From positions 1 through 64,000 of the forward strand of contig NZ_JACIGK010000014.1 in assembly GCF_014197915.1 (NCBI RefSeq): a stretch of 64,000 bases of DNA, in the 5' to 3' direction. How positions within the stretch are numbered: the first letter of the stretch is position 1; each line of letters opens with the position of its first letter. The notes under the pieces were generated by a model. It ran no database searches and was not told the DNA's origin. It saw nothing but the letters and a program-made list of their open reading frames with translations. Made by a program: the position numbers and the translations under genes. Positions 47,342-63,866 of this stretch are shown here, piece by piece. Source of the stretch: Roseospira visakhapatnamensis (GTDB taxonomy: Bacteria > Pseudomonadota > Alphaproteobacteria > Rhodospirillales > Rhodospirillaceae).

Positions 47342-47400
47342 CGGCGCCGCGCCGGATGCCGACGCTCCCTTCATATCATTCGGAAAAGGAGGCCGTGCCC

Positions 47401-47994
47401 ATGATGGACCAGACCGCCGCGCCCGCACCCTCGTATATCGTGGATGAACTGGGCGCGGGCCGGGTGGAAATCTTCCCCCTGCCCACCGACGAAGCCGCGC
47501 TGGACACGCTGTTGCGGGACGTGTTCGAGACCTGGTGGGACCAGATCGTGTTCGGCACCCTGATCCAGGGCGCCGCCTACGAGATCCAGGTGCAGGCCCC
47601 GCCCAAGCGGATCAACCGGCTCGACGGCTACCTGACCGTCGAGTTCGACACCTGGCACTTTCACATCTGCATCGGCGAGAACAAGGGGCTGCCGCACCTG
47701 CCCACCAACCCGGATCTGGCCGCCATCCGGCGCCCCGGCCGGGCCGAGCTGGCGCGCATGATCCGTCCGGACGGCACGCCGCGAAGCTGGCAACTGCGCC
47801 TGTTCAACGGCAAGGGCGAGAACCAGCTCACGGTGTTTCTGCCGCATCCGTTCCTGGAGCGGGGCGAGGTGGTGACCGACACGCCCGACTGGTCGCGCCT
47901 GGAGATGTGGGACGCCATTCGCAAGCGGTACCTGGGGCTCGATCCCGATCCCCTGGACCGGACCGCCCACGGCAGCCCATGCGCGGGCGGATGA
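47401..47994 (+). CDS. unrecognised protein in B12 uptake operon
   Basis: 197-residue soluble protein without signal peptide or membrane helix. It is rich in aromatic and acidic residues in the middle (DVFETWWDQIVFG, EFDTWHFHICIGENKGLPH) and ends with EMWDAIRKRYLGLDPDPLD. The W-H-F-H-I-C-I-G motif could bind metal or a corrinoid, but this is speculation. I do not recognise the family with confidence. It has a perfect AAGGAGG 8 bases ahead of ATG47401 and overlaps the btuF-like start, so it is clearly a real gene of the riboswitch-controlled operon. Confidence 0.85.
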   Translation: MMDQTAAPAPSYIVDELGAGRVEIFPLPTDEAALDTLLRDVFETWWDQIVFGTLIQGAAYEIQVQAPPKRINRLDGYLTVEFDTWHFHICIGENKGLPHLPTNPDLAAIRRPGRAELARMIRPDGTPRSWQLRLFNGKGENQLTVFLPHPFLERGEVVTDTPDWSRLEMWDAIRKRYLGLDPDPLDRTAHGSPCAGG

Positions 47995-49888: not shown

Positions 49889-50709
49889 GCGGACTGGAGA
49901 TCACCTCCCTGAGCGTCCGGATCGGCGCGCGCCGCCTGGTGGACGCGGCCAGCCTGGAGGCGCGCCGGGGCATGATCACCGGCGTGATCGGTCCCAACGG
50001 CGCCGGCAAATCGACTCTCCTGCGCGCGGTCGCGGGGGTGGTGCCGCACACCGGCACCCTCCGCCTGGACGGCGTGCCCCTGCCGCGCCCGGGGGGCCGC
50101 GCCCGCGCCCGCCTGATCGGCTACCTGCCCCAGGATCACGGCGTGCACTGGCCGGTGTCGGTGCGCCGCATGGTGGAACTGGGGCGGCTGCCGCATCTCG
50201 GTCCCTGGCGGTCGTTGTCGGGGGCGGACACCGAGATCGTCGAGGCCGCCCTGGCCCGCACCGATAGCGCCGGCCTGGCCGACGCGGCGGTGCCCACCCT
50301 GTCCGGCGGCGAGCGCGCGCGGGCCATGCTGGCCCGGGTCCTGGCCACCCGAACGCCCGTCCTGCTCGCCGACGAGCCCGCCGCCGCGCTGGATCCCGCC
50401 CATCAGGTGGGGGTGATGACCGTGCTGCGGGAGGAGGCGGACACCAACCAGCGGGTTATCGTGGTGGTGCTCCACGACCTGTCGCTGGCCGCGCGCGTCT
50501 GTGACCGGCTGGTGCTGATGGAGGCCGGGCGGGTGATTCGCGCCGGGGCGGCGGAGACCGTCCTGGGGGCCACCGACCTGGAGCGGGTGTATGGCGTCGC
50601 CTTCAGCCGGGGGCATGTCGACGCCATGCCGGTGGTGACGCCGGTGATCCGTCCGCCGTCCGGCGGTGGTGGTGGCGGCTGGATCGACCGCGATGCGGGC
50701 GGCGCCTGA
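49885..50709 (+). CDS. btuD: BtuD-like ABC ATPase
   Basis: 274-residue ATPase of the iron-chelate/B12 ABC class: Walker A GPNGAGKST, Q-loop LPQDHGVHWPVSV, signature LSGGERARAMLARVLA, Walker B VLLADEPAAALDP and switch histidine VLHDLSLAAR. It energises BtuC. The C-terminal GGGGGGWIDRD tail is unconserved. It overlaps the start of the tonB gene. Confidence 0.95.
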   Translation: MSGLEITSLSVRIGARRLVDAASLEARRGMITGVIGPNGAGKSTLLRAVAGVVPHTGTLRLDGVPLPRPGGRARARLIGYLPQDHGVHWPVSVRRMVELGRLPHLGPWRSLSGADTEIVEAALARTDSAGLADAAVPTLSGGERARAMLARVLATRTPVLLADEPAAALDPAHQVGVMTVLREEADTNQRVIVVVLHDLSLAARVCDRLVLMEAGRVIRAGAAETVLGATDLERVYGVAFSRGHVDAMPVVTPVIRPPSGGGGGGWIDRDAGGA

Positions 50710-51511
50710 GTCGCGCCCGGGCTCGCCGGCACCCGTCGCGCGCGGGCTTGGCCATGCGATCCCGCTGCTGGCCTCCGTCGCCCTGCACGGCGTCCTGGTC
50801 CTGGCCCTGGCGGTCGCCCAGGACACCGTGCCGCCTCAGCCGCTGGACGTCAGCCCGACCGTGATCGCCGTCATGCTGGCGCCCGCCGGAGTCCAGGCGG
50901 ACGCGGCCCCGCCGGCGTCCCGCGCGGGGCGTGATGTCAAGACGGCCGAGGCGGTTCCCGAGTCGCTCCCTGAGCCTGAGCCGGTGACCGCGCGGGTCCC
51001 CGAACCGGAACCTGACGCGGTCGCCTCCTCGGTGGTTGCCGTGATGCCGCCGGCGGTCAAGCCGCGTGCGCCTGCGCGCCCGGTCCGCCCCCGTCCGGTT
51101 CGACCGGCACGCGTCGCCACCCCCGACCCGGCGCATCCCGTGAGGACGGCGGCATCCCCTGGCGGGCGCACCCATGGGGCCATCGGCGATGCGGTGGCGG
51201 GCGCCCGGGGCGGGAGCGGGAGCGGGTCGACTCGGGCGCCCGGTTATGTGCTTGGCAGCGCGCGCAACCCGGCGCCGCCCTACCCGGAGCAGGCCCGTCG
51301 ACGGGGTCACGAGGGCACCGTGCTCCTGACCGCGCGGGTCAGTGCCGAGGGCCGGGTGCTCGGTGTCTCGGTCGCGCGGTCCAGCGGACATGGCAGCCTC
51401 GACCGTGCGGCGCGCCGGGCGGTGCGGGGCTGGCGCTTCCAGCCGGCGACCCGCGCCGGGGTGCCGGTGTCGGGAACGGCACGGGTGACGATCCGCTTCG
51501 TGCTGCGCTGA
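50693..51511 (+). CDS. tonB: TonB-like energy transducer
   Basis: 272-residue inner-membrane-anchored periplasmic protein: one N-terminal helix (AIPLLASVALHGVLVLALAVA, with the S-x-x-x-H anchor), a long Pro/Glu/Val/Ala- and Arg-rich spacer (residues about 60-170), and a TonB C-terminal domain (NPAPPYPEQARRRGHEGTVLLTARVSAEGRV...RRAVRGWRFQPATRAGVPVSGTARVTIRF). It probably energises the co-transcribed BtuB. No exbB/exbD genes are present here, so it must share a motor encoded elsewhere. Confidence 0.93.
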   Translation: MRAAPESRPGSPAPVARGLGHAIPLLASVALHGVLVLALAVAQDTVPPQPLDVSPTVIAVMLAPAGVQADAAPPASRAGRDVKTAEAVPESLPEPEPVTARVPEPEPDAVASSVVAVMPPAVKPRAPARPVRPRPVRPARVATPDPAHPVRTAASPGGRTHGAIGDAVAGARGGSGSGSTRAPGYVLGSARNPAPPYPEQARRRGHEGTVLLTARVSAEGRVLGVSVARSSGHGSLDRAARRAVRGWRFQPATRAGVPVSGTARVTIRFVLR

Positions 51512-52145
51512 GGCCGGCGGCGGCGCTCCGCCTCCCCCGTGGTGTTGGCCCGGCCCCGGTGATCGCCTGCCCGAGTCGCGGTCGAGTCGGGGGCGCGTGG
51601 CCTCGAGTCCGGCGCCTCGATCTGGGTCGCGGGGCCCATAACGTCGCCTTGGTCCCCTGACGGTGCGCGGATGGCCCCGGCGATCGACCACTGGCCACGC
51701 CTGTCCGGCGGGCGCCGCATGCGGGCGCGATGGCAGGGACGACCTGCGGTACTCATAGATATCCATTTGTGCGGTGTTAAACCTTTTGATTGAATCGAGC
51801 GGCGCTATATCCAATGGGAGCAATATAACTAATCTGCTCGATAAAGGCGCAAACTCCGAGCCGTCCAGGGCGGGTCGAGGGCGGCAGAGTGTCCTTAATC
51901 AAGGTGTGGAGGCTCGCGCCAGGCGCGGTTTCAGGTCCGTTCACGTGCGTTTCAGGACACCGGCGCCATGCGCCTCACGCGGGGGTATGGGGGCGGTCGG
52001 CTCCCTTCGATATACGGGATGCACACTTTTACGCGTGTGCATGCACGGCGTCGACCGGGGCCGAAATGACCTCATTCGATGCTCCGAACGTCCGGCGTTG
52101 GCGCATTTTGGGCGCTCTCTTGGATTTAGAAGCGACATAGTTTCT

Positions 52146-52161
52146 AGTTGCACGCGCAACT
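52146..52161. promoter_or_regulatory. inverted repeat in PKS leader
   Basis: AGTTGC-ACGC-GCAACT, two perfect 6-base arms around 4 bases. The size suits a dimeric winged-helix regulator such as the MarR protein encoded at the other end of the cluster, but no matching site was found before that gene. Confidence 0.35.
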
Positions 52162-52207
52162 CCCTTATGGTAATTCGTTGTCGTAACGGAAAAGAGTTGT
52201 CATTAAT

Positions 52208-52223
52208 CGGTAATCGATTACCG
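52208..52223. promoter_or_regulatory. perfect 16-bp palindrome in PKS leader
   Basis: CGGTAATCGATTACCG is a perfect palindrome in the AT-rich core upstream of the polyketide genes, about 500 bases before the first of them. A regulator operator is the simplest reading; the regulator is unknown. Confidence 0.4.
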
Positions 52224-52266
52224 GATTGATGAAAAAATTTCCAATTTCCGCAAAAAGGCAAAAAAA

Positions 52267-52407
52267 ATGGAGCAAACAGAGATGCGTTCTCCAGTTAGTG
52301 TGACTCATGATATTTCAGAAAAACTAAAAAATAAAATGCATTTTAATAATATGCAAATTGATTTCTTGAATCAGGTCCGGAAATATTTCTTGTTGACAGC
52401 GACATAG
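52267..52407 (+). CDS. short AT-rich open frame, 46 codons
   Basis: ATG52267 opens a 46-codon frame beginning MEQTEMRSPVSVTHDISEKL and ending in FLLTAT, with an A/G-rich stretch upstream as possible ribosome-binding site. It is predicted mostly helical and charged. At about 33% GC a frame of this length is not significant by itself, and I recognise no family. Confidence 0.25.
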   Translation: MEQTEMRSPVSVTHDISEKLKNKMHFNNMQIDFLNQVRKYFLLTAT

Positions 52408-52716
52408 ATCTTTAATTGTTTAATATGTATCGCACGCTATAGGGTTTAGGTGTGGTCCCGGTGTCGCGGGGCGTCGCGACGGTCCCGGGAACACGCGGTC
52501 CCTCGGAAAGTGACGGGTCCGGTCCGTCCATCAACCGAGAGGGTTCCACGATCCGGCGCGGCCGCAGGTGGTCCGGCGCGATCGTTGCCACCGGACGCGG
52601 TCCATGCGTCCGGCCCCTGTCAAGGTCCCGCTGCCCAGACGCGGGGCGTGCCCGCCCGACCGCGCCGCGCGGTGTCCGACCTGGGTTCGAGGACCACACT
52701 CGTCAAAGAGGCAGCC

Positions 52717-53646
52717 ATGAAGACAGACCATTCCATCGAAGTCGCGTGCCCCGCCGATCCGGCGTTCCGTGTCGGTCTTGAGGTGGCCCACTGGCCGGAG
52801 ATCTTCCCGCCCTGCCTCGCCGCCAAGGTTCTGGAAGAGACCGAGGACCGCCAGAAGATCGCCCTGACGGCCCGCGCCAACGACACGATCTTCAGCTGGG
52901 AATCGGAACGGGCCATCGACCGCGAGCGCCGTCAGATCTCCTTCTCGCAGAGCAAGCCCTCGCCGCTGGTGCGGTTCATGAACGGGACCTGGCGCTTCGA
53001 GCCCAAGGATGCCGGCTGCGTCATCACCCTCACGCACGATTTCGAGGTCGCCGACCGGGTCTCCGGTGTCGTGGACGGGGTGAGCACGCGCGAGGACGCG
53101 GCCAAGTTCATGCTGGACTCCATCGAGACCAACAGCCGCAAGGAGCTGTCGGCGGTCGCCGAGCGCCTGGAGCGTGAGCGGTGGCGTCACGTCTTCGAGG
53201 AGTCCCTGGTCATCCGCCAGCCGATCGCGCTGATCTCCCGCCTGCTGCGCGATGCCGCGAGCTGGCCCTGGCTGCTGCCCCACTGCACCGATGTGCAGGT
53301 GATCTACGACGACGGGCGCTATCAGGAGTTCGTCATGGTCGTCCAGGTCGGCGATGTCGAAGAGCGGATCCGCAGCGTGCGCGTGCTGGCCCCCGACCGC
53401 ATCGAGTACTTCCAGCCCGCCCCGCCGCCCGCGCTGCGCGAACACCGGGGCCGCTGGACCCTGACCGAGGGTCCGGACGGCGTGGAGGTCGTGTCCTGGC
53501 ACGACGTGGTGCTCAACCCCGCCTTCTGGGCCGACAAGAAAGAGCGCGAGGCCGCCAAGCAGCACGTCGAGGCGGCCATCAACCGCAACAGCCTCGGCAC
53601 CATGCAGGCGATCGTCGCCAAACTGGAGGGATCGAACCATGCGTAA
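52717..53646 (+). CDS. type II PKS di-domain aromatase/cyclase
   Basis: 309-residue protein of two tandem START/SRPBCC-fold halves (about 1-150 and 155-305), the arrangement of Act/Gris di-domain aromatase-cyclases. Half one: HSIEVACPADPAFRVGLEVAHWPEIFPPCLAAKVLE...RQISFSQSKPSPLVRFMNGTWRFEP. Half two: VIRQPIALISRLLRDAASWPWLLPHCTDVQVIYDDG...FQPAPPPALREHRGRWTLTE. It would fold and aromatise the first ring of the ACP-bound poly-beta-keto chain after C9 reduction. First gene of the cluster; the stop overlaps the ketoreductase start. Confidence 0.9.
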   Translation: MKTDHSIEVACPADPAFRVGLEVAHWPEIFPPCLAAKVLEETEDRQKIALTARANDTIFSWESERAIDRERRQISFSQSKPSPLVRFMNGTWRFEPKDAGCVITLTHDFEVADRVSGVVDGVSTREDAAKFMLDSIETNSRKELSAVAERLERERWRHVFEESLVIRQPIALISRLLRDAASWPWLLPHCTDVQVIYDDGRYQEFVMVVQVGDVEERIRSVRVLAPDRIEYFQPAPPPALREHRGRWTLTEGPDGVEVVSWHDVVLNPAFWADKKEREAAKQHVEAAINRNSLGTMQAIVAKLEGSNHA

Positions 53647-54409
53647 CGCGCTCATCACGGGGGGAACCCGGGGCATCGGCAAGGCGATCGCCGCCCGGCT
53701 GGTGGCCGATGGCCTGAACTGCGTGCTGGTGGGGCGGGATCAGGCCACGCTCGACGCCGCCGTCGACGACCTGTCGTCGCCGGCCGTGACGGTCGTGGGC
53801 ATCGCCTGCGACGTGACCCAGCCCGAGCAGGTCACGGCGATGATCGAGAGCGCGCGCGCCGCGCTCGGCTCCATCGACGTGCTGGTGAACTGCGCCGGGC
53901 GCAGCGGCGGCGGGGTCACGAAGGACCTGGCCGACGAACTCTGGCGCGATGTCATCAACACCAACCTCAACTCGGTGTTCTACGTCACCAAGGAGGTGCT
54001 GCGCTCGCAGGCCATGGGCGCCGGCGGCGCGGTCATCAACATCGCCAGCACCGGCGGCAAGCAGGGGGTCATCCATGGCGCTCCGTACAGCGCCTCCAAG
54101 CATGGCGTGGTCGGCTTCACCAAGGCCCTGGGCCTGGAACTGGCCCGCGACGGCTCGGACATCACGGTCAACGCCGTCTGCCCGGGCTTCGTGGAGACCG
54201 AGATGGCCGCGCAGGTCCGCAGGAACTACGCGAAAATCTGGGAGGTCACGCCCGAGGTCGCCAAGTCGCGCATCGAGGCGCGGGTGCCGATCGGCCGGTA
54301 CATCGAGCCGATCGAGGTGGCCGCCATGGTCTCGTACCTGGCGTCCACCCAGGCCCGCGGCGTCACCGCCCAGGCCATGAACGTCTGCGGCGGGCTGGGC
54401 AACTACTGA
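53639..54409 (+). CDS. polyketide ketoreductase, ActIII type
   Basis: 256-residue SDR highly reminiscent of actinorhodin KR: NADPH motif TGGTRGIG, catalytic Ser137 (NIASTGGKQGV), Tyr150 and Lys154 (APYSASKHGVVGFTKALGLELA), PGFVETEMAAQVRRNYAKIWEVTPEVA and the ending TAQAMNVCGGLGNY. The residues that read PGG in ActKR, near the active site and linked to stereocontrol, are SGG here (89-91). It should reduce the C9 ketone of the nascent chain on ACP. Follows the aromatase with an 8-base overlap. Confidence 0.95.
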   Translation: MRNALITGGTRGIGKAIAARLVADGLNCVLVGRDQATLDAAVDDLSSPAVTVVGIACDVTQPEQVTAMIESARAALGSIDVLVNCAGRSGGGVTKDLADELWRDVINTNLNSVFYVTKEVLRSQAMGAGGAVINIASTGGKQGVIHGAPYSASKHGVVGFTKALGLELARDGSDITVNAVCPGFVETEMAAQVRRNYAKIWEVTPEVAKSRIEARVPIGRYIEPIEVAAMVSYLASTQARGVTAQAMNVCGGLGNY

Positions 54410-54460
54410 CCCGCGCCCCCTTTCCTCGGCATCGCCGGCCCGTATCGGGAGTTTGCAGGC

Positions 54461-55759
54461 ATGGACAAGAAGAGAGTCGCCGTCACGGGGCTCGGCGTGA
54501 TCGCGCCCAACGGCACGAATGTGGATGAATTCTGGAAAAACATGAGGGTCGGAAAGAGCGGCATCGCCCGGATCGAGACCTTCGACGTGGACGCGTTCCA
54601 GTCCCGGATCGCCGGAATCGTCCAGGACTTCTCGCCCGACGACTACGACATCGACGACGACCAGAAGCACGGCCTTGACCGGTTCGCCCTGTTCGCCCTC
54701 GCCGCCGCCGAGGAAGCCATGCGCAACGCGGGCCTGCGGGAGGGGGACTACGACCCCGACCGGCTCGCCGTCAGCATCGCCACGGCCATCGCCGGCACCA
54801 AGTACATGGAGGAGGAGTTCCTTCGCCTCACCCAGGGCGGGTCCGCGCCGCTGGATGCCGCGCTGGCCAGCCCGGACCTGCTGCCCAACACGTGCTTTCA
54901 CATCGCCTCGTCGGAGATCGCCCGCAAGTACGGGGCCCGTGGCCCGGTGCATACGCTGGCGACCGGATGCACGGCCGGCCTGGATGCGGTCGGCGAGGCC
55001 ATGGAGATGATCCGCGCCGGCGAGGCGGACATCGTCATCGCCGGGGCCGCCGAGGCGCCGCTCACGCCGATCGCCCTGGGGGCCTTCGACATCATCGGCG
55101 CGCTTCCCGACGACCGCAACCACAGGCCCGACACCGCGTCGCGGCCCTATGACGTGTCGCGATCCGGGTTCGTGCTGGCGGAGGGCTGCGGCATCCTCGT
55201 GCTGGAGGACCTCGACCACGCGCGGCGGCGCGGCGCGCCCATCCTGGCCGAGTTGCGGGGCTTCGGCTCCACCTGCAACGCCTACCACATGACCGATCTC
55301 CAGCCCGAGGGAATCGACCTGCACCGGGCCATGGTGCTGGCACTGGCCGACGCCGGGCTCGACCCCGGGCGCATCGACTACGTCAACGCGCATGGCAGCT
55401 CGACGCCCCAGAACGACGTCAACGAAACCAATGCCGTCAAGCGCACGCTGGGCGCGCGCGCCCACGAAATCCCGGTGTGCTCGCTGAAGTCCATCGTCGG
55501 GCACGCCCTGGCGGGCGCCAACACGGTGGAGCTGGTCTCGCTGGTGCAGACCATCCTGCATCAGGAGACACCGCCCACCGCCAACCTGGTGACCCCGGAT
55601 CCGGCCTGCGACCTGGACTACGTCGCCGACGGCCCGCGCAAGACCCGCATCGATTTCGCCATGAAGGACGCCAGCGGGTTTTCCGGCATCCACAGCGCGT
55701 TGATCGTCGCCCGCTACGATCCGACCGCGTCTCACTCCGAGGAGGCTCGACTGGCATGA
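54461..55759 (+). CDS. type II PKS ketosynthase alpha (KS-alpha)
   Basis: 432-residue catalytic condensing enzyme. The Cys-His-His triad is intact: Cys170 in LATGCTAGLDAVGEAMEMIRAGE, His311 in NAHGSSTPQND and His348 in KSIVGHALAGAN with Lys343. The TGCTAGLDA context and the PYDVSRSGFVLAEGCGILVLEDL segment are those of aromatic type II PKS rather than FabF. It pairs with the chain-length factor encoded next, whose start overlaps this stop (ATGA). It performs repeated malonyl-ACP condensations; a malonyl-CoA:ACP transacylase is not encoded here and is presumably borrowed from fatty acid synthesis. Confidence 0.95.
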   Translation: MDKKRVAVTGLGVIAPNGTNVDEFWKNMRVGKSGIARIETFDVDAFQSRIAGIVQDFSPDDYDIDDDQKHGLDRFALFALAAAEEAMRNAGLREGDYDPDRLAVSIATAIAGTKYMEEEFLRLTQGGSAPLDAALASPDLLPNTCFHIASSEIARKYGARGPVHTLATGCTAGLDAVGEAMEMIRAGEADIVIAGAAEAPLTPIALGAFDIIGALPDDRNHRPDTASRPYDVSRSGFVLAEGCGILVLEDLDHARRRGAPILAELRGFGSTCNAYHMTDLQPEGIDLHRAMVLALADAGLDPGRIDYVNAHGSSTPQNDVNETNAVKRTLGARAHEIPVCSLKSIVGHALAGANTVELVSLVQTILHQETPPTANLVTPDPACDLDYVADGPRKTRIDFAMKDASGFSGIHSALIVARYDPTASHSEEARLA

Positions 55760-56919
55760 CCCGAGACGTCGTCATCACCGGCATGGGCGTGGTCCTGCCG
55801 AAGACCCGGTCCCTCGACGCGCTGTGGCACCACGTCGGCACTCCCGGCCCCCATGTCGAGCGCCTGTCGTCGCGCATCGCCGGCAGCCGGATCGACGAGA
55901 GCGCCATCGCCGAGGCCCTGCCGCCGCGGCTGTCGAGGAAGCTCGACGCGTTCACCCGGTATGCCCTGATCGCCACGCAGTCGGCGATCGAGGACGCGGC
56001 GCTGGCCCTGGACGGCATCGACCGCGAGCGCTGCGGTGCCTTCGTCGGCAACTGCTTCGGCGGCTGGCGGTTCACGGAACGTGAACTGCGCCATCTGCAT
56101 GGGATCGGTCCGCGCGCCGTGAGCCCGTTTCAGGCGACGAGCTGGTTCCCGGCCGCGCCGCAAGGCCAGATCACCATCGTGCACGGCCTCAAGGGGTTCA
56201 GCAAAACCTACATGGCCGACCGCATGAGCAGCCTGGTGAGTGTCGCCTCCGCCGCCAGCCTCATCCGGCGGGGGCAACTCGACGTGGCCATCGCCGGGGG
56301 CGCGGAAAGCACCAACACGGACTTCGTCCGCGCGGCCCTGGAACGGATCGCCGCCGCCAACGGCGAGCCCGATCCCGCCGAAAGCGGCTTCCAGGTTTCG
56401 GAGGGCGCCGTCTTCCTGGTGCTGGAGGACGCCGGCCATGCCCGGGCGCGGGGCGCTCGCGTCTATGCCGGCCTGCGGTCCTTCGCCATGCGCAACGCGC
56501 CCAGCCGCCCCGACCAGTACGCCGTCGATCCGCGAGTGCTGGAGGGCACCATGCGGCGGGTGCTGGGCAACCTGAAGGCCGACATCGTGCTGCCGGACGC
56601 CAGCGGCCTCGCCCGCGTGGACGCCTGCGAGCAGGCGGCCCTGGACACGGTCTGCCCGGGGGTCCCGGCGTTGCGGCCCAAGGGGGCGTATGGCCATGCC
56701 TTCGGCGCCGAGGGGGCGCTCGACGTCGTGTTCGCCAGCCTCATGCTGCACCGCCAGCAACGCCTTCCCACGGTGCCGTCCGGGGACGACGGCGCCGACC
56801 TTTCCTCCGCCCGGAGCGGGACCGCTCGGGATGCCCGTCAGGCGATCGAGCGGATCCTTATCAACGCCTGCGCCATGGGCGGCGGCGCCGGCAGTCTCTT
56901 GCTCACGAAGGAGAGCTGA
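55756..56919 (+). CDS. chain-length factor (KS-beta), atypical
   Basis: 387-residue non-catalytic ketosynthase partner. Where KS-alpha has the active-site Cys, canonical chain-length factors have Gln in V-A-D-Q-A-G-G-L-D; here the segment is TYMADRMSSLVSVASAASLIRRGQ, with Arg156 in the Gln position. The second-His region is also lost (LPDASGLARVDACEQ), while YGHAFGAEGALDVV is kept. It is shorter than many CLFs. It should form the heterodimer with KS-alpha that sets chain length. The unusual position may mean a divergent product or priming mode. GGAGG lies 10 bases before the ATG. Confidence 0.88.
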   Translation: MTRDVVITGMGVVLPKTRSLDALWHHVGTPGPHVERLSSRIAGSRIDESAIAEALPPRLSRKLDAFTRYALIATQSAIEDAALALDGIDRERCGAFVGNCFGGWRFTERELRHLHGIGPRAVSPFQATSWFPAAPQGQITIVHGLKGFSKTYMADRMSSLVSVASAASLIRRGQLDVAIAGGAESTNTDFVRAALERIAAANGEPDPAESGFQVSEGAVFLVLEDAGHARARGARVYAGLRSFAMRNAPSRPDQYAVDPRVLEGTMRRVLGNLKADIVLPDASGLARVDACEQAALDTVCPGVPALRPKGAYGHAFGAEGALDVVFASLMLHRQQRLPTVPSGDDGADLSSARSGTARDARQAIERILINACAMGGGAGSLLLTKES

Positions 56920-56920
56920 C

Positions 56921-57187
56921 ATGACCACCTCGCAGGAGCGCATCGAAACCGTCGTGATCGACGCCATCGCCACGTCCCTGAGTGCCGATCCCGCGACGAT
57001 CAACGCCGACACCCAGTTGGAGGATGACCTGGGCGTCGATTCCACGGAACTGATCGGGATTATCGTGGAGATTGAGAAGGCTCTCAGCATCAGCCTGAAG
57101 GGCCTTGACTACGCCAAGTTGAAGACACCAGCCGATCTGGTGGCCGTGATCACCAAGGTGGTCCGCGTCGAGGAGCCGGTGGCCTAA
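56921..57187 (+). CDS. polyketide acyl carrier protein
   Basis: 88-residue four-helix ACP. The 4'-phosphopantetheine attachment Ser41 is in LEDDLGVDSTELIGIIVEIEKAL, with a strongly acidic helix [11 protein letters not shown] precedes the start, one base after the CLF stop codon. It completes the minimal PKS KS-CLF-ACP and is presumably modified by the transferase encoded at 60797. Confidence 0.93.
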   Translation: MTTSQERIETVVIDAIATSLSADPATINADTQLEDDLGVDSTELIGIIVEIEKALSISLKGLDYAKLKTPADLVAVITKVVRVEEPVA

Positions 57188-57196
57188 AGCCGCGAC

Positions 57197-57233
57197 CCGG
57201 ACGGAGGGGGCGCGGTCGTGTCCCTCCGTCCGG
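57197..57233 (+). terminator. strong hairpin after the ACP gene
   Basis: CCGGACGGAGGG (57197-57208) pairs perfectly with CCCTCCGTCCGG (57222-57233) around a 13-base loop, just after the ACP stop. A run of eight T occurs only later, at 57280-57287, after a weaker CGGT/ACCG pairing. Together they probably attenuate or end transcription between the minimal PKS genes and the ABM genes, or stabilise the 3' end of the abundant ACP message. The remaining bases to 57402 hold no gene. Confidence 0.5.
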
Positions 57234-57402
57234 CTGGCCGCCCGGCCGGCCCTCCGGTCGACGGGCCGTCATGCCACCGTTTTTTTTGGGCCGCGATACG
57301 AGCCTTCGGGCGCGAGTCCGGACGGTCTCGCCCCGGGCTCTCGTCACGGGAGTCCGTCGGGGGGCCGTCCGCCGACGGCGCGGGTCCGTGTGGGAGGCGA
57401 CC

Positions 57403-58002
57403 ATGATCACCACCTTTGCATTCCATGAGACTCCCCCGGACGGCCTGTCGCGCCACCCGCGCGTCCGGCGCGTCGGTGGACGCGGCGCGGTGCTGACCTT
57501 TCCGCTGGCCCGCGACGACGCCGAGACCTTCGACCGTCAGGGTTATGGCGGGTCGCGGTACGGGGCGGTCGTGATGGAGACCCTGCGCGAGGGCGTGGAC
57601 CCGATCGCGGCGCCGGAACGGGCGGGCGCCAGCTTGACCCTCGACACCGCCTGTGTGATGCGGGTCAGGGGGACCGGGGGCGGCCCGGCCACCGGCGTGG
57701 TCCTGTTCACCCTGTGCGACCTCGCCGAAACCGACGCGCCCGCCTTCCTCGCGCAGTTCACGGCGGCGAGCGCCTTCATGGCCCGCCGGCCGGGCTTCCG
57801 GAGCGCGCGTCTCTATCGCGAGCGGTCCTCCCGGGCCCGCGCCGCCTTCGTCAACGTCGCCGCCTGGACGACCGTCGCCGCCTTCGTCGACGCGTTCTCC
57901 AGCGACGCGTTCAAACGCATCATCGTCGGCGGCTTCGAGACGCGCAGTCGGATCCTGGTCGCGCCTCTTCCGTCCGCCCCGGTTCTGGAGGCCGCGCAAT
58001 GA
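57403..58002 (+). CDS. double ABM-fold protein 1 of 4
   Basis: 199-residue protein. The C-terminal half (about 100-195) is an antibiotic biosynthesis monooxygenase-type dimeric alpha/beta-barrel domain: VVLFTLCDLAETDAPAFLAQFTAASAFMARRPGFRSARLYRERSSRARAAFVNVAAWTTVAAFVDAF. The N-terminal half is a degenerate copy. ABM enzymes in aromatic polyketide pathways oxidise anthrones to quinones without cofactor (ActVA-Orf6, ElmH), and the same fold includes TcmI-like cyclases. GGGAGG precedes the start. First of four tandem paralogues, coupled to the next by ATGA. Confidence 0.82.
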   Translation: MITTFAFHETPPDGLSRHPRVRRVGGRGAVLTFPLARDDAETFDRQGYGGSRYGAVVMETLREGVDPIAAPERAGASLTLDTACVMRVRGTGGGPATGVVLFTLCDLAETDAPAFLAQFTAASAFMARRPGFRSARLYRERSSRARAAFVNVAAWTTVAAFVDAFSSDAFKRIIVGGFETRSRILVAPLPSAPVLEAAQ

Positions 58003-58667
58003 TCGTCCGCATCGATCTTCTCGACACCCCCGATCCCGGCCCCGTGGCGCGGGTCTGGTCGACGGCGCTGCGGGAGGCGGCGCCGATGCCGGGCTTCGGC
58101 GGCGCCCGGCTGTACCGGGTCTACCGGCGCCTGAACCGCGAGGGCTATGCCCTGGTCAGCATGGCCCGCTGGGACAGCCTGGCCGCGTATCACGAGTCCG
58201 ATCTGGCCTCGGCGCGCCCGCCCTTCGGCGCCTGGACCCGGCCCGGGATCCATCTCTACGCGCCGGTGGACGCCAGCGCCGCCAATCCCCGTCCCGTCGA
58301 GGACGGTCACCTCATCATCACCAATCCCTACCGGATCGACCGGCAGTCGGCGGGCGAGAACGCGCGGATGTGGAGCGCGACCAAGACGATGATGGAAAGC
58401 CGCGAGGGCTTTCTCGATGCCGAGTTGTTCCAGACCTTCCACCCGGAGACCGACGAATACTACTTCGTCAGCCGGGCCCGCTGGGAGACCGAGGCGTTCT
58501 TCATGAAGCAGTTCGCCGGCAAGGACTATAAGGCACTGGTCGCCCCCTTCGAAGGCACCTTCCAGATCTGCTTCTCGCATGTCGAGGACGCGGTAACGGC
58601 CGGGATGCCCGTCGCGGCCCTTCGGCAGCCTTCCCCTTCCATCGCAACCGAACAGGTGACGTCATGA
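57999..58667 (+). CDS. double ABM-fold protein 2 of 4
   Basis: 222 residues in two ABM-like halves: residues 1-95 (MIVRIDLLDTPDPGPVARVWSTALREAAPMPGFGGARLYRVYRRLNREGYALVSMARWDSLAAYHES) and about 105-205 (HLIITNPYRIDRQSAGENARMWSATKTMMESREGFLDAELFQTFHPETDEYYFVSRARWETEAFF). Each half shows the GF-x-x-(A)-x-L-(Y/F)-(R/Q) strand and the W-(E/D)-(S/T) motif of ABM domains. Overlaps genes 1 and 3 by four bases, so the four are co-translated in fixed order. Confidence 0.82.
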   Translation: MIVRIDLLDTPDPGPVARVWSTALREAAPMPGFGGARLYRVYRRLNREGYALVSMARWDSLAAYHESDLASARPPFGAWTRPGIHLYAPVDASAANPRPVEDGHLIITNPYRIDRQSAGENARMWSATKTMMESREGFLDAELFQTFHPETDEYYFVSRARWETEAFFMKQFAGKDYKALVAPFEGTFQICFSHVEDAVTAGMPVAALRQPSPSIATEQVTS

Positions 58668-59317
58668 TCATGGTCATCGATTTCCTGGAGGCATCGGATC
58701 TGCAACGCGCCAGGGAGACCTGGTGGGCGGTGAGCGGGGTCCTCTCTCGATGCGCCGGGTTCCAGGACGGCCAGTTGCTGGAGACCTTCGACACCGTCCA
58801 GCCCCGGGTCGGCTATCCCCTGGCCAGCGCGACCCGCTGGGACAGCGCGGCGGACTGGGACCAGGCCCGCGCCGCCGCCAGGAGCGACCCCAAGGTGCTT
58901 GCGATCCTCGGCGCCTCCGGCACCCGCTTCACCAGCCTGAAGGCCGACCTCGTCGACGGGCGTGCCTTCACGTTCCGGGGCGAGTCCCCGCACATGGTGC
59001 TGTTCGACATCGTCTACCTGGCGCCCGGCCAGGCCGAGGACTACGCCGCCATGTGGCACGAGGCGAACGCCTACATGGGCGCGCGTCCCGGCTTCGTGAA
59101 CGCCAGCCTGCACCGCAGCCGCGCGGCCGATGACGCGATCGCCTTCGTCAACATCGCCGAGTGGGAGACGACGGACCTGTTCTTCGACGCGGTGCACACC
59201 GCGCGCTTCGCCGAGATCGTTGAGTCCTTCAAGGAGGACTTCTCGCTGCTGCTGACGCGGCGCGTGCTGCATCGCGGACCGAACGCCACCTCGCTGCTGA
59301 CGGGAGACGCGGCATGA
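58664..59317 (+). CDS. double ABM-fold protein 3 of 4
   Basis: 217 residues, again two ABM halves: 1-95 (MIMVIDFLEASDLQRARETWWAVSGVLSRCAGFQDGQLLETF...ATRWDSAADWDQA) and about 105-205 (HMVLFDIVYLAPGQAEDYAAMWHEANAYMGARPGFVNASLHRSRAADDAIAFVNIAEWETTDLFFDA). The second half is the most canonical ABM sequence of the set. No cofactor motif is seen, consistent with cofactor-free oxygenases. ATGA overlaps link it to genes 2 and 4. Confidence 0.83.
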   Translation: MIMVIDFLEASDLQRARETWWAVSGVLSRCAGFQDGQLLETFDTVQPRVGYPLASATRWDSAADWDQARAAARSDPKVLAILGASGTRFTSLKADLVDGRAFTFRGESPHMVLFDIVYLAPGQAEDYAAMWHEANAYMGARPGFVNASLHRSRAADDAIAFVNIAEWETTDLFFDAVHTARFAEIVESFKEDFSLLLTRRVLHRGPNATSLLTGDAA

Positions 59318-59970
59318 TGCACATGGCTGAAATCGTCTCGGGCGAGCCGGACCGCGAGGCCTGGGCCTCCTGGCTGGATGAGACCCGTGTTCTGCGGGAC
59401 CGGCACGGTCTGGTCGATGCGGAGCTTTTCGAACGCGTCGAGGACATCCGCGACGCCACCTACGCCTACATCTCCGTGCGCGGCTGGACGCACGAGGAGG
59501 ACTTCCAGGAAGCCATGGCCCTCGGGGCGCTGGACCACGGTTTTTCCGGCCGGGCCGTCGAGAGGATCGTGATCCGGATGCGGACCCAGCTCGGCGACCT
59601 TGCCCCGACCGGACCGGGGCATGTCTGGCTGGTCAATCCCTTCGAGATCGCGGGCGCCGAGATCGAGGGCGCGCTCGCCATGTGGGACCGGGCCAAGGAC
59701 CACATGCTTGCCCACCCCGGCTTCATGAACGCGCGCCTGTTCCGGGCCCGCTCGCCGGCCGCCAAGCACGGCCTGCTCAACGTCTCGCAATGGCGGGATG
59801 CGGCGTCGTTCAAGCAGGCGCTGGCGGACCGGGCCTATGACCGGCATCGCGAGCGGTCCCTGTCCTACAAGCTGCATCCATCGCTGTGCCGGCGTGTCTT
59901 CGACCTCGGCGAGGCATCGGCGGCGCCCGTTCCGGTGCCGTCCGTGCCGGCGGAGTCGGTGGTCGCCTGA
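59314..59970 (+). CDS. double ABM-fold protein 4 of 4
   Basis: 218 residues: N-half (EAWASWLDETRVLRDRHGLVDAELFERVEDIRDATYAYISVRGWTHEEDFQEAM) and C-half (HVWLVNPFEIAGAEIEGALAMWDRAKDHMLAHPGFMNARLFRARSPAAKHGLLNVSQWRDAASFKQAL). It shares with protein 2 the start of the second half (L-x-N-P-(Y/F)-x-I), suggesting 2 and 4 are closer to each other. Last of the four overlapping genes; a 93-base gap follows. Confidence 0.82.
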   Translation: MMHMAEIVSGEPDREAWASWLDETRVLRDRHGLVDAELFERVEDIRDATYAYISVRGWTHEEDFQEAMALGALDHGFSGRAVERIVIRMRTQLGDLAPTGPGHVWLVNPFEIAGAEIEGALAMWDRAKDHMLAHPGFMNARLFRARSPAAKHGLLNVSQWRDAASFKQALADRAYDRHRERSLSYKLHPSLCRRVFDLGEASAAPVPVPSVPAESVVA

Positions 59971-60063
59971 TCCCCGCGCCGGGACGCGCGTGCCGTCGGC
60001 GGCCGTCCGGCCCGCGTCCCGGCTCGGCCCTTGCCCGTTCATACAATCCGAGAGGAAAGCACC

Positions 60064-60786
60064 ATGTCGCGACACGTTGCCGTCGTCACCGGCGCCAGCC
60101 GAGGCATCGGGCGCGAGGTTGCCCGGCATTTCGCGAGCCGGGGATACGACCTTGTTCTGGTGGCCCGGGACGAGTCCAGGCTCGCGGCGGCCGCCGAGAC
60201 CCTGCGCGCGGACCACGGGATCGCCGTTGAGTCCGTGGCCGTCGATGTCTGTGCCCTTGCCGACGCCGCGCGCGCGGTGCTCGACGCCGTCGACCGCGGG
60301 GGCCGCCTGGACGTGCTGGTGAACGCGGCGGGGATCTTCCGCTTCGGGACCAGCGTCGCGAGTGTCGACGACCTGGACGCCATGCTGCGGACCAACGTGC
60401 TGGCCATCCACAATCTGTGCGCGGCCTGTCTCGATCATCTGAGGCAGGCCGAGGACGGGCGCATCTTCAACATCTCGTCGATCGCCGGCGTCGAGCCGTT
60501 CGCGCCGGTCGGCGGCTATGCGGCCAGCAAGCACGCCCTGGTGGGATACGGGCGGTCGCTCGCGCGCGAGCAGCTTCCCAACGGCGTCAAGGTCACCACC
60601 CTGTGTCCGGATGTGGTGGACACGGACATGGGGGCCGGGTCCGGCCTGCCGCCCGAGGACATGATCGCGCCGGCCGACATCAGCCGGGCGATCGACTTCG
60701 TGATGTCCCTGTCCCCGGCGGCGGTGGTCGAGCATCTCACCATCGGCTGCAAGCCGGCGACAGAGGGACCCCGGGCGCAGGGGTGA
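60064..60786 (+). CDS. SDR oxidoreductase of the PKS cluster
   Basis: 240-residue short-chain dehydrogenase/reductase: cofactor motif TGASRGIG, NAAG, catalytic Ser139 (NISSIAGVEPF), Tyr152 and Lys156 (GGYAASKHALVG), and LCPDVVDTDMGAG. It is not an ActIII-type KR and is more divergent from the first reductase, so it probably acts as a tailoring reductase on a later intermediate. GAGAGGAAAG precedes ATG60064. Specific substrate unknown. Confidence 0.88.
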   Translation: MSRHVAVVTGASRGIGREVARHFASRGYDLVLVARDESRLAAAAETLRADHGIAVESVAVDVCALADAARAVLDAVDRGGRLDVLVNAAGIFRFGTSVASVDDLDAMLRTNVLAIHNLCAACLDHLRQAEDGRIFNISSIAGVEPFAPVGGYAASKHALVGYGRSLAREQLPNGVKVTTLCPDVVDTDMGAGSGLPPEDMIAPADISRAIDFVMSLSPAAVVEHLTIGCKPATEGPRAQG

Positions 60787-60796
60787 GCGCCGCTCC

Positions 60797-61543
60797 ATGA
60801 GGCAACGTGCCGGGGTGCGCGCCACCTCCTGGACGCCGGTGCGCCTGCGCGACCTGGCCGCCGCGCATGCCGCCGGCGGCGGCATCAGCGTGTTCATGCT
60901 GCATGACCGCCAGCGCGGGGACTGGCGCCCGCGCAGCCGGGAGGCGGCGCATGCCGTCCTGCGGGCCGCGACCGGCGACCCGGCCCTGTGCATCGAGAAG
61001 GATCGATTCGGAAAGCCGTTCGTCCCGGGACGCCCGCTGCATGTGAGCATCAGCCACAGCGGGCCGGCGTTGGTGATCGCCCTGGGGGCGGTCGATCTTG
61101 GGGTCGACGTCGAGATCCTGCGCCATCCTACGCGCTGGCGCGACCTCTATGCATGGATTGTCGCGCCCGACGAGCGTCTCGCGGACCCGAGTCCGCGCGA
61201 CTTCCTGCGCTGCTGGACCGCCAAGGAGGCCCTCGTCAAGCTGCTGGGGCGGGGCCTGGCCGAGGGCCTGGACTCCCTGTCCCTGCCCGCCGACCCGCCC
61301 CGGCCGGACGGGGGCGCGGGGGCGCGGGCGTCGTCCTTTCGACGGGTCGTGGCGCATGGTCGGACCTGCTGGGTCCGTCATCTGGCGCCTTGGCGGGAGA
61401 CGACGCTTGCCCTGGCGGTGGCATGTCCACACTTCACGCGTACTTTTATGATTATTGACTATCCTTGCCTTTCGTCACTACACTGTATCGGTGAGGCAGA
61501 ATTTTATAAAACGCAAAAAGAAAGTTTGCCCACGGCTCTTTAA
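60797..61543 (+). CDS. 4'-phosphopantetheinyl transferase, Sfp type
   Basis: 248-residue enzyme that converts apo-ACP to holo-ACP using CoA. Motifs: FGKPFVPGRPLHVSISHSG, magnesium-binding Asp104 and Glu106 in LGVDVEIL, and Glu144 in FLRCWTAKEALVKLLG. Its presence in the cluster implies dedicated activation of the ACP at 56921. The last 35 residues (after LALAVACP) come from AT-rich sequence and look like run-on translation into the spacer rather than conserved protein. It starts 10 bases after the SDR stop. Confidence 0.92.
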   Translation: MRQRAGVRATSWTPVRLRDLAAAHAAGGGISVFMLHDRQRGDWRPRSREAAHAVLRAATGDPALCIEKDRFGKPFVPGRPLHVSISHSGPALVIALGAVDLGVDVEILRHPTRWRDLYAWIVAPDERLADPSPRDFLRCWTAKEALVKLLGRGLAEGLDSLSLPADPPRPDGGAGARASSFRRVVAHGRTCWVRHLAPWRETTLALAVACPHFTRTFMIIDYPCLSSLHCIGEAEFYKTQKESLPTAL

Positions 61544-61564: not shown

Positions 61565-62101
61565 GTGCAAGAGATTAAAACAGGCGATGACTTGATCTTG
61601 ACCGGTATCATTCTTGAGATTTTCCGGTTGCGGAGAAAGTTGCTCGACAAGGGCGATGAACTCGTCCGGCCCTTGCGCCTGACGAGCACCGACTGGCAGC
61701 TCCTGGGCGCGGTCGCGCTCGCCGGTCAACCCATGACGACGCCCATGATCGCGGAAACGATGGGGCTCACGCGCCAGGGGACGCAAAAGCGCCTCAACAA
61801 GATGGTGGGCGAGGGCTATTTCCAGCAACGGCCCAATCCGCGTCACGAGCGCTCGCCGCTCTATGTCCTGACCGAGCGTGGATCCCTGGCGTTCGAAAAG
61901 GCGATGGCCCTGCATGCGCGTTGGGCCAGGACCTTGGTCGAGGATCTCAACGCGCGTCATCTGGATCACGCGCTAGAGGTGCTCAAGGCGCTGGACCACC
62001 GACTCGATCGCGTCACGATCCCCGGGAGCGGCGCCTGGAGCCGATCGGCGGAGGGCGAGCGCGACCTGTCGTGGGGGCCGCGCGGCGACGCGCGCCGCTG
62101 A
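61565..62101 (+). CDS. MarR family transcriptional regulator
   Basis: 178-residue winged-helix regulator: LRLTSTDWQLLGAVALAGQPMTTPMIAETMGLTRQGTQKRLNKMVGEGYFQQRPNPRHERSPLYVLTERG. Start is GTG61565; the sequence before it is AT-rich with weak ribosome-binding potential (TAGAG). It lies 21 bases after the transferase gene, so it probably belongs to the polyketide operon and may control it. The C-terminal 25 residues are Arg/Gly-rich and unconserved. Confidence 0.88.
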   Translation: MQEIKTGDDLILTGIILEIFRLRRKLLDKGDELVRPLRLTSTDWQLLGAVALAGQPMTTPMIAETMGLTRQGTQKRLNKMVGEGYFQQRPNPRHERSPLYVLTERGSLAFEKAMALHARWARTLVEDLNARHLDHALEVLKALDHRLDRVTIPGSGAWSRSAEGERDLSWGPRGDARR

Positions 62102-62275: not shown

Positions 62276-62734
62276 ATGCCCAAAGCCCTTCATCCCATCG
62301 CCGGCGCGCTGGCGCTGCTGACGATTCTGACGTTCTGGACCGCCACCGTGCTGTCCGAACTGCTGGGTCCGGCGACGGCCGTGGTCACCGTCAAGACCCT
62401 GATTCCCTGGGGGCTGATCCTGCTGATCCCCGCCCTCATGGTGGCCGGCGGCTCCGGCTTCGCCTTGTCGAAGGGCGAGAGCGCCCAGAGCATCCAGGGT
62501 GCCGTCGACGCCAAGCGCAAGCGGATGCCGTTCATTGCCGCGATCGGTCTTCTGGTCCTGGTTCCGGCATGTCTGGTCCTGGCCGTCAAGGCGCGGGCCG
62601 GGGCGTTCGATGTCACCTTCTACGCGGTGCAGGCGATCGAACTGGTCGCCGGGGCCGTCAACATCGCCTTGCTGGGCCTGAACATGCGCGACGGCTTGCG
62701 CATGACCGGCCGCCTGCGTCCGCGCTCCGCCTGA
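62276..62734 (+). CDS. small four-helix membrane protein
   Basis: 152-residue inner-membrane protein with four predicted helices: IAGALALLTILTFWTATVLSELLG, TLIPWGLILLIPALMVAGGSGFAL, FIAAIGLLVLVPACLVLAVKA and YAVQAIELVAGAVNIALLGLNM, with a basic cytoplasmic loop (DAKRKRMPF). It resembles uncharacterised membrane proteins of about this size; the function is unknown to me. ATG62276 is chosen, with GGAG 9 bases before it. It is followed 30 bases later by a lipoprotein gene. Confidence 0.85.
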   Translation: MPKALHPIAGALALLTILTFWTATVLSELLGPATAVVTVKTLIPWGLILLIPALMVAGGSGFALSKGESAQSIQGAVDAKRKRMPFIAAIGLLVLVPACLVLAVKARAGAFDVTFYAVQAIELVAGAVNIALLGLNMRDGLRMTGRLRPRSA

Positions 62735-62764: not shown

Positions 62765-63181
62765 ATGTCGTCCATCGTGAAAGCACCGCTTCTGGTCGTT
62801 CTGCTGGGCATGCCCATGACGGGGATGCTTGCCGGCTGCGGCGCGCCCCACCTGGAGACCGTCCAGGACGCGAAACGAGACCTCGTCGGCCAGGACGCGG
62901 CGGTACTGTCGCGCTGCATCGGCGAGCCCATGGCCGTCCGCCCGGTCGAGGGCGCGGCGCGGGCCACCCACGTCTATTCCTCCGCCCAGGCCCGGGGCGC
63001 GGACGGCCTGTTGCTGGCGACGCCGGGACCGGACGCGGTCGACCACAGATCGGCCTGCGTGTTCGATATCACCGTCCAGGATCAGCAGATCGTCGCGGTG
63101 CGCAGTGACAACCGCGCCGGCTGGGGCTTCGGCAGCATCAAGACCTGCTCGGCCGTCGTGAAGCGGTGTCTGAAGGATTGA
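62765..63181 (+). CDS. small lipoprotein
   Basis: 138-residue predicted lipoprotein: signal MSSIVKAPLLVVLLGMPMTGML and lipobox LAGC (Cys25). The mature part has the pattern LVGQDAAVLSRCIGEP...YSSAQARG...CVFDITVQDQQIVAVRSDN...GSIKTCSAVVKRCL, similar to small outer-membrane assembly-type lipoproteins in layout, but the family is not recognised. Three extra cysteines near the C-terminal half may form a disulfide. GAGGAGAGGAGG precedes the ATG. Confidence 0.87.
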   Translation: MSSIVKAPLLVVLLGMPMTGMLAGCGAPHLETVQDAKRDLVGQDAAVLSRCIGEPMAVRPVEGAARATHVYSSAQARGADGLLLATPGPDAVDHRSACVFDITVQDQQIVAVRSDNRAGWGFGSIKTCSAVVKRCLKD

Positions 63182-63188
63182 GCCTGTC

Positions 63189-63866
63189 TCACGTGCCGGC
63201 GGGGTGCGGGGACGGATGATCCTCGGCGTCCCGTCGGCGCAGGCCGTGCAGGAACACGTCGGCCGCGAACCGCAGGGACGCTTCCAGGGCGTCCGGGTCG
63301 ACCTCCGTGGTCAGGTGGAAGAGCGCCCGCTCATGCACATAGCCCCGCACCAGCCCGAAGAAGCCCTCGGCCGCCCGGCGGCTGTCGACGTCGCGAAAGA
63401 CGCCGTCGTCCACCTGCGCCTGGATGTAGGCGGTCAGCAGGCGGGCCGCCGGCTCGTGCCCGGACTCGTAGAAGACCCGCCCGAGGTCGGGAAACCGTCC
63501 GGCCTCGGCGACCACGACGCGGTAGAGGCTGAGGCCCTCCGGCGAGAGCAGCACGTCCCAGAACGTGCGGCCCAGCGCGATCAGGGTCTCGCGCGGGTCC
63601 CGGTCGCCGAGGTCGGCCTGACGCAACGGCGTCAGGATGACGTCGCAGTACTCGTGGATGATCGCGCCGAACAGGGCTTCCTTGCTGGGGAAATGCGCAT
63701 AGAGGGTGCGTTTGGAGACGCCGGACTCCTCCACGATGCGGTCGACGCCGGCCAGGCCGAAGCCGTCGCGCATGAAGGTTCGGGCGGCGGCGTCGAGGAT
63801 CGCCCGCCGTTTGTCGGCCCGCAACTGGCTGGGGCGTGGGGCCTGGCGGGAGGCTCGGTCTGACAT
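63189..63866 (-). CDS. TetR family transcriptional regulator
   Basis: 225-residue repressor. N-terminal helix-turn-helix: RAILDAAARTFMRDGFGLAGVDRIVEESGVSKRTLYAHFPSKEALFGAII. The C-terminal ligand domain (about 85-205) includes FWDVLLSPEGLSLYRVVVAEAGRFPDLGRVFYESG, typical of AcrR-like regulators of efflux or lipid genes. It converges with the lipoprotein gene, 7 bases between stops. Its likely target is the palindrome 60 bases upstream and whatever gene lies to the right of the window. Confidence 0.92.
   Translation of the reverse strand: MSDRASRQAPRPSQLRADKRRAILDAAARTFMRDGFGLAGVDRIVEESGVSKRTLYAHFPSKEALFGAIIHEYCDVILTPLRQADLGDRDPRETLIALGRTFWDVLLSPEGLSLYRVVVAEAGRFPDLGRVFYESGHEPAARLLTAYIQAQVDDGVFRDVDSRRAAEGFFGLVRGYVHERALFHLTTEVDPDALEASLRFAADVFLHGLRRRDAEDHPSPHPAGT

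Follow-up and report, generated by a model that had tools for sequence, protein, structure and literature searches.

A probable type II aromatic polyketide synthase cluster with four ABM proteins in the Gram-negative bacterium Roseospira visakhapatnamensis

Aromatic polyketides of the type II kind are best known from Streptomyces. An 11-gene cluster in a 64,000-nucleotide stretch of Roseospira visakhapatnamensis DNA (hereafter the window: C14:1-64000, from contig NZ_JACIGK010000014.1 of a 4.49-Mb genome) raises the questions of whether an alphaproteobacterium holds a pathway of this kind, to which known systems it is related, and what it might produce. The results bear out an earlier sequence-only reading, which had proposed that this Gram-negative genome holds a type II aromatic polyketide synthase (PKS) cluster and had pointed to Photorhabdus, an apt comparison. 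Probably, though by no means certainly, the cluster encodes a type II aromatic PKS that looks functional and represents a Gram-negative lineage other than that of the Photorhabdus ant cluster; this lineage is called here the ABM type, and a pathway is proposed for it.

The genes were called from Pfam, NCBIfam, and PDB sequence searches (Table 1). On re-reading of the sequence, all 11 genes at 52717-61543 were in frame and on the plus strand, and every component named by the sequence-only reading was present: ketosynthase alpha (KS-alpha), chain-length factor (CLF), acyl carrier protein (ACP), ketoreductase (KR), aromatase/cyclase, oxygenase-like proteins, a second short-chain dehydrogenase/reductase (SDR), and a 4'-phosphopantetheinyl transferase (PPTase). 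Five of the ten junctions overlap, two have gaps of 1 and 10 bases, and three have gaps of 51, 215, and 93 bases, so that the earlier wording "mostly coupled by overlaps" was a little strong. The description of the cluster as complete is subject to a reservation: MCAT was not found among the 11 genes (no search for one was made elsewhere), and a search of the window detected neither an ant-type cyclase nor a ligase of that type. The G+C content of the cluster (0.696) is close to that of the window (0.690), and the composition therefore shows no sign of recent import. A chance assembly is implausible in view of the database scores and of three further lineages in which the genes follow this order.

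Table 1. Features of the cluster and its flanks, with positions in the window.
Feature	Position	Strand	Evidence and remarks
Didomain aromatase/cyclase (SRPBCC x2)	52717..53646	+	Pfam Polyketide_cyc in 2 stretches; best PDB match BexL 4xrw
ActIII-type KR	53639..54409	+	PDB ActIII 1x7g; Pfam adh_short
KS-alpha	54461..55759	+	Best PDB match 6smo_B; Pfam ketoacyl-synt N and C
CLF	55756..56919	+	Best PDB match 6smo_C; motif tables; Arg at Cys site; GGWRFTEREL
ACP	56921..57187	+	Pfam PP-binding 3.7e-10; motif GVDST
ABM1, degenerate N-half	57403..58002	+	Pfam ABM 1.3e-5; motif FVNVAAW
ABM2, didomain, Ser replaces motif Asn	57999..58667	+	Pfam ABM 1.3e-4, under curated cut-off; FVSRARW
ABM3, didomain	58664..59317	+	Pfam ABM 2.7e-6; model with mean predicted local distance difference test score (pLDDT) 91.0; top Foldseek match PenE 9kdp
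ABM4, didomain	59314..59970	+	Pfam ABM 1.2e-4, under curated cut-off; motif LLNVSQW
Second SDR	60064..60786	+	Pfam adh_short; kept in all four ABM-type lineages
PPTase	60797..61543	+	Pfam ACPS 2.9e-9
AT-rich stretch, G+C 0.358	52140..52460	.	Inside 1.2-kb region upstream of operon
MarR-type regulator	61565..62101	+	Pfam MarR_2 9.1e-10; 21 bases behind PPTase gene
Small hydrophobic protein	62276..62734	+	No Pfam match; homologues in L019, L102, and L023, hence in all four ABM-type lineages
Small lipoprotein-like protein	62765..63181	+	Homologue in Rhodospira metagenome-assembled genome (MAG) only among 14 sources; lipoprotein read from sequence
TetR-type regulator	63189..63866	-	Pfam TetR_C_7 2.5e-27; divergent from RND operon

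The sequence features of a type II PKS were found together: a KS-alpha with the Cys-His-His set, a Cys-less KS-like partner encoded next door, an ACP, and an aromatase/cyclase. In an alignment of 41 KS rows, KS-alpha retains Cys170, His311, Lys343, and His348, and it contains the motifs TGCTAGLDA and HGSST. Its PDB matches were led by 6smo_B (388 bits), ahead of Thermus FabF 1j3n (340 bits) and the actinorhodin KS (335 bits). Chains B and C of 6smo, the latter being the nearest to the CLF, are presumably Photorhabdus AntD and AntE; the 6smo KS falls among the Photorhabdus rows of the KS tree. The CLF gene adjoins the KS gene with a 4-base overlap, and in an alignment of 32 CLF rows its product has Arg at the Cys position. 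The same residue was found in the other three ABM-type rows and Zooshikella, and also in several Omnitrophota, a Planctomycetales, a Dehalococcoidia, a Gammaproteobacteria MAG, and Paenibacillus, so it is not unique to the ABM type. This site is occupied by Gln in all five Streptomyces rows, by Asp in the four Photorhabdus rows, and by Lys, Ser, Asp, Gly, Thr, Ile, or Val in the remaining rows.

KS-like pairs were also observed in more distant bacteria. The Gram-positive Paenibacillus piscarius (L098) has a CLF with SKTVIADR, a sequence common in non-actinobacterial CLFs, and a PF04199 cyclase match nearby. Many MAGs of Omnitrophota, Nitrospirota, and Dehalococcoidia contain a KS with a KS-like partner, often an ACP, and weak SRPBCC and SDR matches nearby; the Cys site in 12 aligned partners of such MAGs (one Planctomycetales included) is Arg, Lys, Ser, Ile, or Val. 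Type II PKSs of Omnitrophica, Nitrospirae, and Chloroflexi are listed already in the accessible text of PMC10132072.

The KR was matched by ActIII 1x7g (290.9 bits) and keto reductase 3sju (266.5 bits), the next PDB match reaching 142 bits. The aromatase/cyclase aligned with BexL over residues 3-296 (4.4e-30) and scored higher against ant rows (136-241 bits) than against Streptomyces and Pseudonocardia rows (105-119 bits). In act-type pathways, an ActIII-type KR together with a didomain aromatase leads to C9-reduced chains. The second SDR belongs to one clade of four rows (100/97) in the KR tree of 36 rows. In the ACP, Thr directly follows the Ser of the GVDST motif; according to the accessible part of PMC11744666, such a Thr is expected to interfere with Sfp activation, and activation of this ACP may for that reason require the cluster's own PPTase.

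The order of aromatase/cyclase, KR, KS, CLF, ACP, ABM1-4, SDR, and PPTase genes is the same in the window, a Rhodospira MAG, plasmids of the plant-associated laboratory bacterium Azospirillum brasilense (Sp7 p3 and MTCC4038 p4), and an Enterobacterales MAG, and the ABM type spans two proteobacterial classes. In the Rhodospira MAG, the contig stops partway through the aromatase gene and gives no information on the genes upstream there. The conserved region runs past 61543 and includes genes for a MarR regulator and a small membrane-like protein and then, beyond the window, an RND adaptor and pump. The A. brasilense Sp7 p3 locus (AMK58_RS25500-25560, with KS-alpha at AMK58_RS25510) shares the 11-gene order, MarR-type homologues, the small hydrophobic protein, and the RND pump, whereas its RND genes directly follow the PPTase gene and its regulators lie upstream.

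Outside these lineages, close relatives were few. Among 198 genomes, the window's own included, the CLF had a match of 82% identity in G005, of the same genus, and the other matches listed were 27-33% identical. ABM3 was found in two of six genomes of the genus, own included, and at E <= 1e-15 in one of 385 class genomes and one of 398 phylum genomes, which in both of these overlapping samples was the window's own. A contig scan (203 pattern matches, 117 relatives, 80 kept) retrieved Rhodospira sp. PL23b_bin.47 (G005; 85%), the Enterobacterales MAG (58%), and Zooshikella harenae (56%), as well as Photorhabdus (five loci), Pseudomonas, Oxalobacteraceae, Cellvibrionaceae, and many candidate-phylum MAGs. 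ABM matches (E <= 1e-4) were present in two (L022 and L023) of those 80 loci, many of which are short. A search of 72,556 plasmid records gave two KS-alpha matches above 60% identity, both in A. brasilense (67.7%), and ABM2 matched only the same two plasmids.

The ABM and ant gene sets were compared in 14 sources (E <= 1e-3; MTCC4038 left out) using Zooshikella and window proteins as queries, among them the PF04199 cyclase, which we take to be the one labeled AntC. The ant-type loci (L024, L063, L065, L093, L095, and L097) contained the cyclase in six, an AMP-ligase in five, and a hydrolase in six of six cases; without L024, the Zooshikella query source, the counts were 5, 4, and 5 of 5. None of the three was found in the four ABM-type sources (window, L019, L102, and L023), and no ABM match was found in the six ant-type loci. 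From their position and the descriptions in the accessible parts of the papers, it follows that the cyclase, ligase, and hydrolase are of the AntC, AntG, and AntI types. Zooshikella harenae (L024:5975-15365) presents an intermediate arrangement, with a KS nearest to the ABM type yet an ant-type cyclase, ligase, and hydrolase.

In the KS tree (41 rows), the window, Rhodospira MAG, Azospirillum, and Enterobacterales rows formed a clade with a support of 100/98, which Zooshikella joined at 100/97. A wider group of 14 rows, containing the ant type, a Gammaproteobacteria MAG, and one Paenibacillus, received 91/92; within the tree, the ABM and ant types were strongly separated (100/98 and 100/100), and six actinobacterial rows stood apart (100/100). 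The CLF tree (34 rows) recovered the same four rows (98/99), with Zooshikella joining only at 81/56, all of them within a 12-row proteobacterial group (93/92). A 20-row KR tree with two FabG-like rows as the root united 11 proteobacterial KRs, including those of the Photorhabdus type, in one clade (98/97) beside unresolved actinobacterial rows; in the tree of 36 rows, this group had a support of only 87/75. The aromatase tree (16 rows) placed five rows together (90/96) with ant and actinobacterial groups on either side and, being unrooted and with long branches, does not decide between these neighbors. Approximately unbiased (AU) tests did not reject trees in which the window group was held with actinobacteria (p 0.14 for KS, 0.24 for CLF, and 0.166 for KR). 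Taken together, the tree support and AU results make the close relationships with Gram-negative relatives firm for the sequences compared, and they leave the deep origin open. The earlier reading had taken the near-ActIII KR to indicate an ancestral transfer whose donor was actinomycete-like. This view was not upheld: the KR clade is proteobacterial, and in the KS and CLF trees, too, the cluster sides with Gram-negative relatives. The trees give no support to a recent actinomycete donor, although the AU tests leave a link possible.

The ABM fold was predicted by a model for ABM3, built from an 11-row alignment, while ABM1, ABM2, and ABM4 were assigned by sequence, with ABM2 (22.5 bits) and ABM4 (22.6 bits) just below the Pfam ABM cut-off of 23.1. 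The model consists of two ferredoxin-like halves of similar secondary structure. Foldseek ranked PenE 9kdp first (E 2.2e-10, template modeling (TM) score by query 0.68, 19% identity) and the anthrone oxidase-like protein 5f9p fifth (TM 0.74, 12% identity), and the long chains of both align over most of ABM3. A profile of 15 ABM rows matched best the short ABM protein 2ril (4.8e-17) and then SnoaB (4.4e-11); lysozyme matches to the N-half of the profile (E about 0.03 to 0.4) were taken as chance. In the motif alignment (15 rows; Rhodospira MAG ABM4 left out), the C-half Trp is present in all rows and an Asn four residues before it in 11, that is, in all ABM1, ABM3, and ABM4 rows. The SnoaB entries have this Asn in 3kg0 and Ala in 3kg1. 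ABM3 shares the predicted ABM fold with the anthrone oxygenases, and ABM1, ABM3, and ABM4 have in the C-half the Asn-x-x-x-Trp of SnoaB 3kg0, but identity of ABM3 to the PenE and 5f9p chains is 11-19%, and four divergent paralogues occur per cluster here. The fold and the SnoaB-type motif support the earlier idea of a late oxidation to a quinone.

Relative to the Photorhabdus ant cluster (AQ-256), the window has in common the nearest solved KS-alpha and CLF, an ActIII-type KR, and aromatase homologues; it differs in that the three ant enzymes sought were not found and four ABM proteins plus a second SDR are present, and in the Arg of the CLF against the Asp of AntE. Actinorhodin and other actinomycete type II PKSs share the KS-CLF-ACP set, the ActIII KR, the didomain aromatase, and an ABM oxygenase (ActVA-Orf6 class). 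In contrast to them, the window KS-alpha shows 42.8-45.0% identity with the listed Streptomyces plasmid rows, the CLF lacks the Gln, and the ABM proteins are didomain and fourfold.

From these parts, the following pathway is inferred. The in-cluster PPTase would activate the ACP, MCAT from primary metabolism would load malonate, and KS-CLF would build a chain of about eight acetate units, which the ActIII-type KR would reduce at C9 and the didomain aromatase/cyclase would close and aromatize in the first ring. A similar chain, C9 reduction, and first-ring aromatization are suggested by analogy with the ant and act KR papers: according to the accessible parts of PMC6638757 / PMC12186476, AntDEF together with AntB yields octaketide shunts, with a 13-fold decrease when AntG is absent; a cluster lacking AntA was complemented with the act KR; AntI makes the chain shorter; and the oxidation that gives AQ-256 is described as spontaneous. 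For SEK4/SEK4b, PMC6638757 gives an [M+H]+ of 319.08. The four ABM proteins, replacing the ant second-ring cyclase, would perform later ring closure and would oxygenate an anthrone-like intermediate to a quinone in a cofactor-free manner. The second SDR would make a further reduction, and the RND pump would export the product under MarR/TetR control. Since no AntI-type lyase was found, the chain is probably not shortened, and the product would keep its full chain length, unlike AQ-256. A more specific proposal, tentative and rather doubtful, gives each of the four didomain ABM proteins a step of its own in a joint module that works without cofactors, takes over from the second-ring cyclase and the oxidases of known aromatic pathways, and yields a new full-length, highly oxidized polycyclic quinone.

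The ABM-type assignment and its pathway draw on the gene content, the KS residues and CLF, Photorhabdus as the nearest solved system, the gene order in four lineages, the ant genes not found, the ABM3 fold, the SnoaB motif in ABM1, ABM3, and ABM4, and the adjacent RND genes. Several points weigh against them. No metabolite of the cluster is known. The CLF has Arg in place of Gln, which leaves the starter step open, and its segment GGWRFTEREL differs from that of AntE as well as from those of the Streptomyces plasmid CLF rows, the chain length being an analogy. The ABM3 fold is also matched by sulfur oxygenase reductases, chlorite dismutases, and bacterial chalcone isomerase, and with such broad matches the reaction cannot be read from the fold by itself. 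ABM2 has Ser for the motif Asn in four of four rows, and the SnoaB-type Asn occurs in none of the 15 ABM N-halves; consequently, not all four proteins need be oxygenases. A whole-genome search for the PF04199 cyclase was empty but had no positive control, and the ligase and lyase were not sought genome-wide.

The ABM block could instead consist mainly of ring cyclases rather than oxygenases, acting on a longer chain to give a larger, pentangular-like polycyclic skeleton. This is an unlikely alternative, to which the missing ant-type cyclase in the cluster and genome (with the limit of the search just given) and the ABM2 substitution lend weight, as does the accessible text of PMC4383371, where ABM proteins of pentangular pathways may act in D/E ring cyclization and the cyclase TcmI and ActVA-Orf6 share a fold. 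Anthrone oxidases, however, are among the nearest folds of ABM3, and the Asn/Trp motif is conserved in 11 of 11 aligned ABM1, ABM3, and ABM4 rows (Rhodospira MAG ABM4 lies outside the alignment). The ActIII-type KR and didomain aromatase also point to C9-reduced chains rather than to such a skeleton. It is considerably less credible that the cluster is a close functional counterpart of the Photorhabdus anthraquinone system, relying on a ligase, cyclase, and lyase encoded at other sites of the genome and yielding an AQ-256-like pigment. The nearest solved KS and CLF and the KR clade shared with ant-type KRs would fit such a system, but none of the four ABM-type sources showed any of the three ant genes, the genome-wide cyclase search gave no match, and the KS tree splits the two types.

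A specialized FabF-like fatty acid or aryl-polyene system is very improbable. KS-alpha does pass the cut-off of NF005589, a broad NCBI FabF subfamily (429.5 bits against 387), but it remains under those of the FabF equivalog TIGR03150 (432.5 against 493.75) and PRK09116 (256 against 470). The sequence-only reading had named a grouping of KS-alpha with FabF as evidence against a type II PKS; the free KS tree, whose references include no aryl-polyene ketosynthase, places KS-alpha outside FabF, whereas the AU test did not reject the window group held with FabF (p 0.315). The Cys-less CLF partner, the didomain aromatase/cyclase, the ActIII-type KR, and the two KS-alpha motifs speak against a FabF-like role, and this reading was rejected on gene content, although the AU test and the broad FabF model do not reject it.

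In the flanks of the cluster, the AT-rich stretch is a candidate promoter or regulatory region, and no inverted repeats of at least 10 bases were found in 51512-52716. Homologues of the MarR regulator are present in the Rhodospira MAG (L019) and A. brasilense (L102), and none was found in the Enterobacterales MAG (L023). Identification of the small hydrophobic protein at 62276 with an Azospirillum DUF2269 protein was rejected; its homologue is the neighboring hypothetical protein (L102 11002-11439), and the corresponding Zooshikella and Enterobacterales genes gave no DUF2269 Pfam match. The RND adaptor and pump genes lie just outside the window (C14 64009-68306), and the TetR/RND arrangement is the same in the Rhodospira MAG.

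Upstream, the translations of 45275-51511 indicate an apparent TonB receptor, heme-utilization protein, binding protein, permease, ATPase, and TonB, and these genes look like a heme or iron uptake operon. No empty site was seen in flanking-gene searches of seven genomes: the upstream TonB-like gene has matches elsewhere in five of the seven, in G005 on a contig other than that of the cluster. For the gene that follows the RND pump, only G005 has a match. This match (L127, G005:C721:807-2321) contains one internal TGA.

Non-actinobacterial type II PKSs have been catalogued in 14 phyla, including alphaproteobacteria and Omnitrophica (PMC10132072, accessible text); the main text of that paper contains neither Azospirillum nor a word beginning with Rhodosp. 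No publication on the cluster, including its Azospirillum version, was found by title and abstract start, a search that covered few subscription papers. Gram-negative type II PKSs are thus known and catalogued, and the present arrangement is a new variant. According to the accessible parts of PMC12186476 and PMC13213394, Gram-negative bacteria rarely have such pathways, or those that they have are largely unexplored. The cluster is compact, intact-looking, and conserved across two proteobacterial classes, and its presence on an A. brasilense Sp7 plasmid means that the product can be sought directly. It also bears on the possibility, raised for pentangular pathways in the accessible part of PMC4383371, that dedicated cyclases can be replaced by proteins of the ABM fold. 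If the proposed ABM module is correct, a polycyclic quinone skeleton would be common to purple bacteria, azospirilla, and an Enterobacterales lineage.

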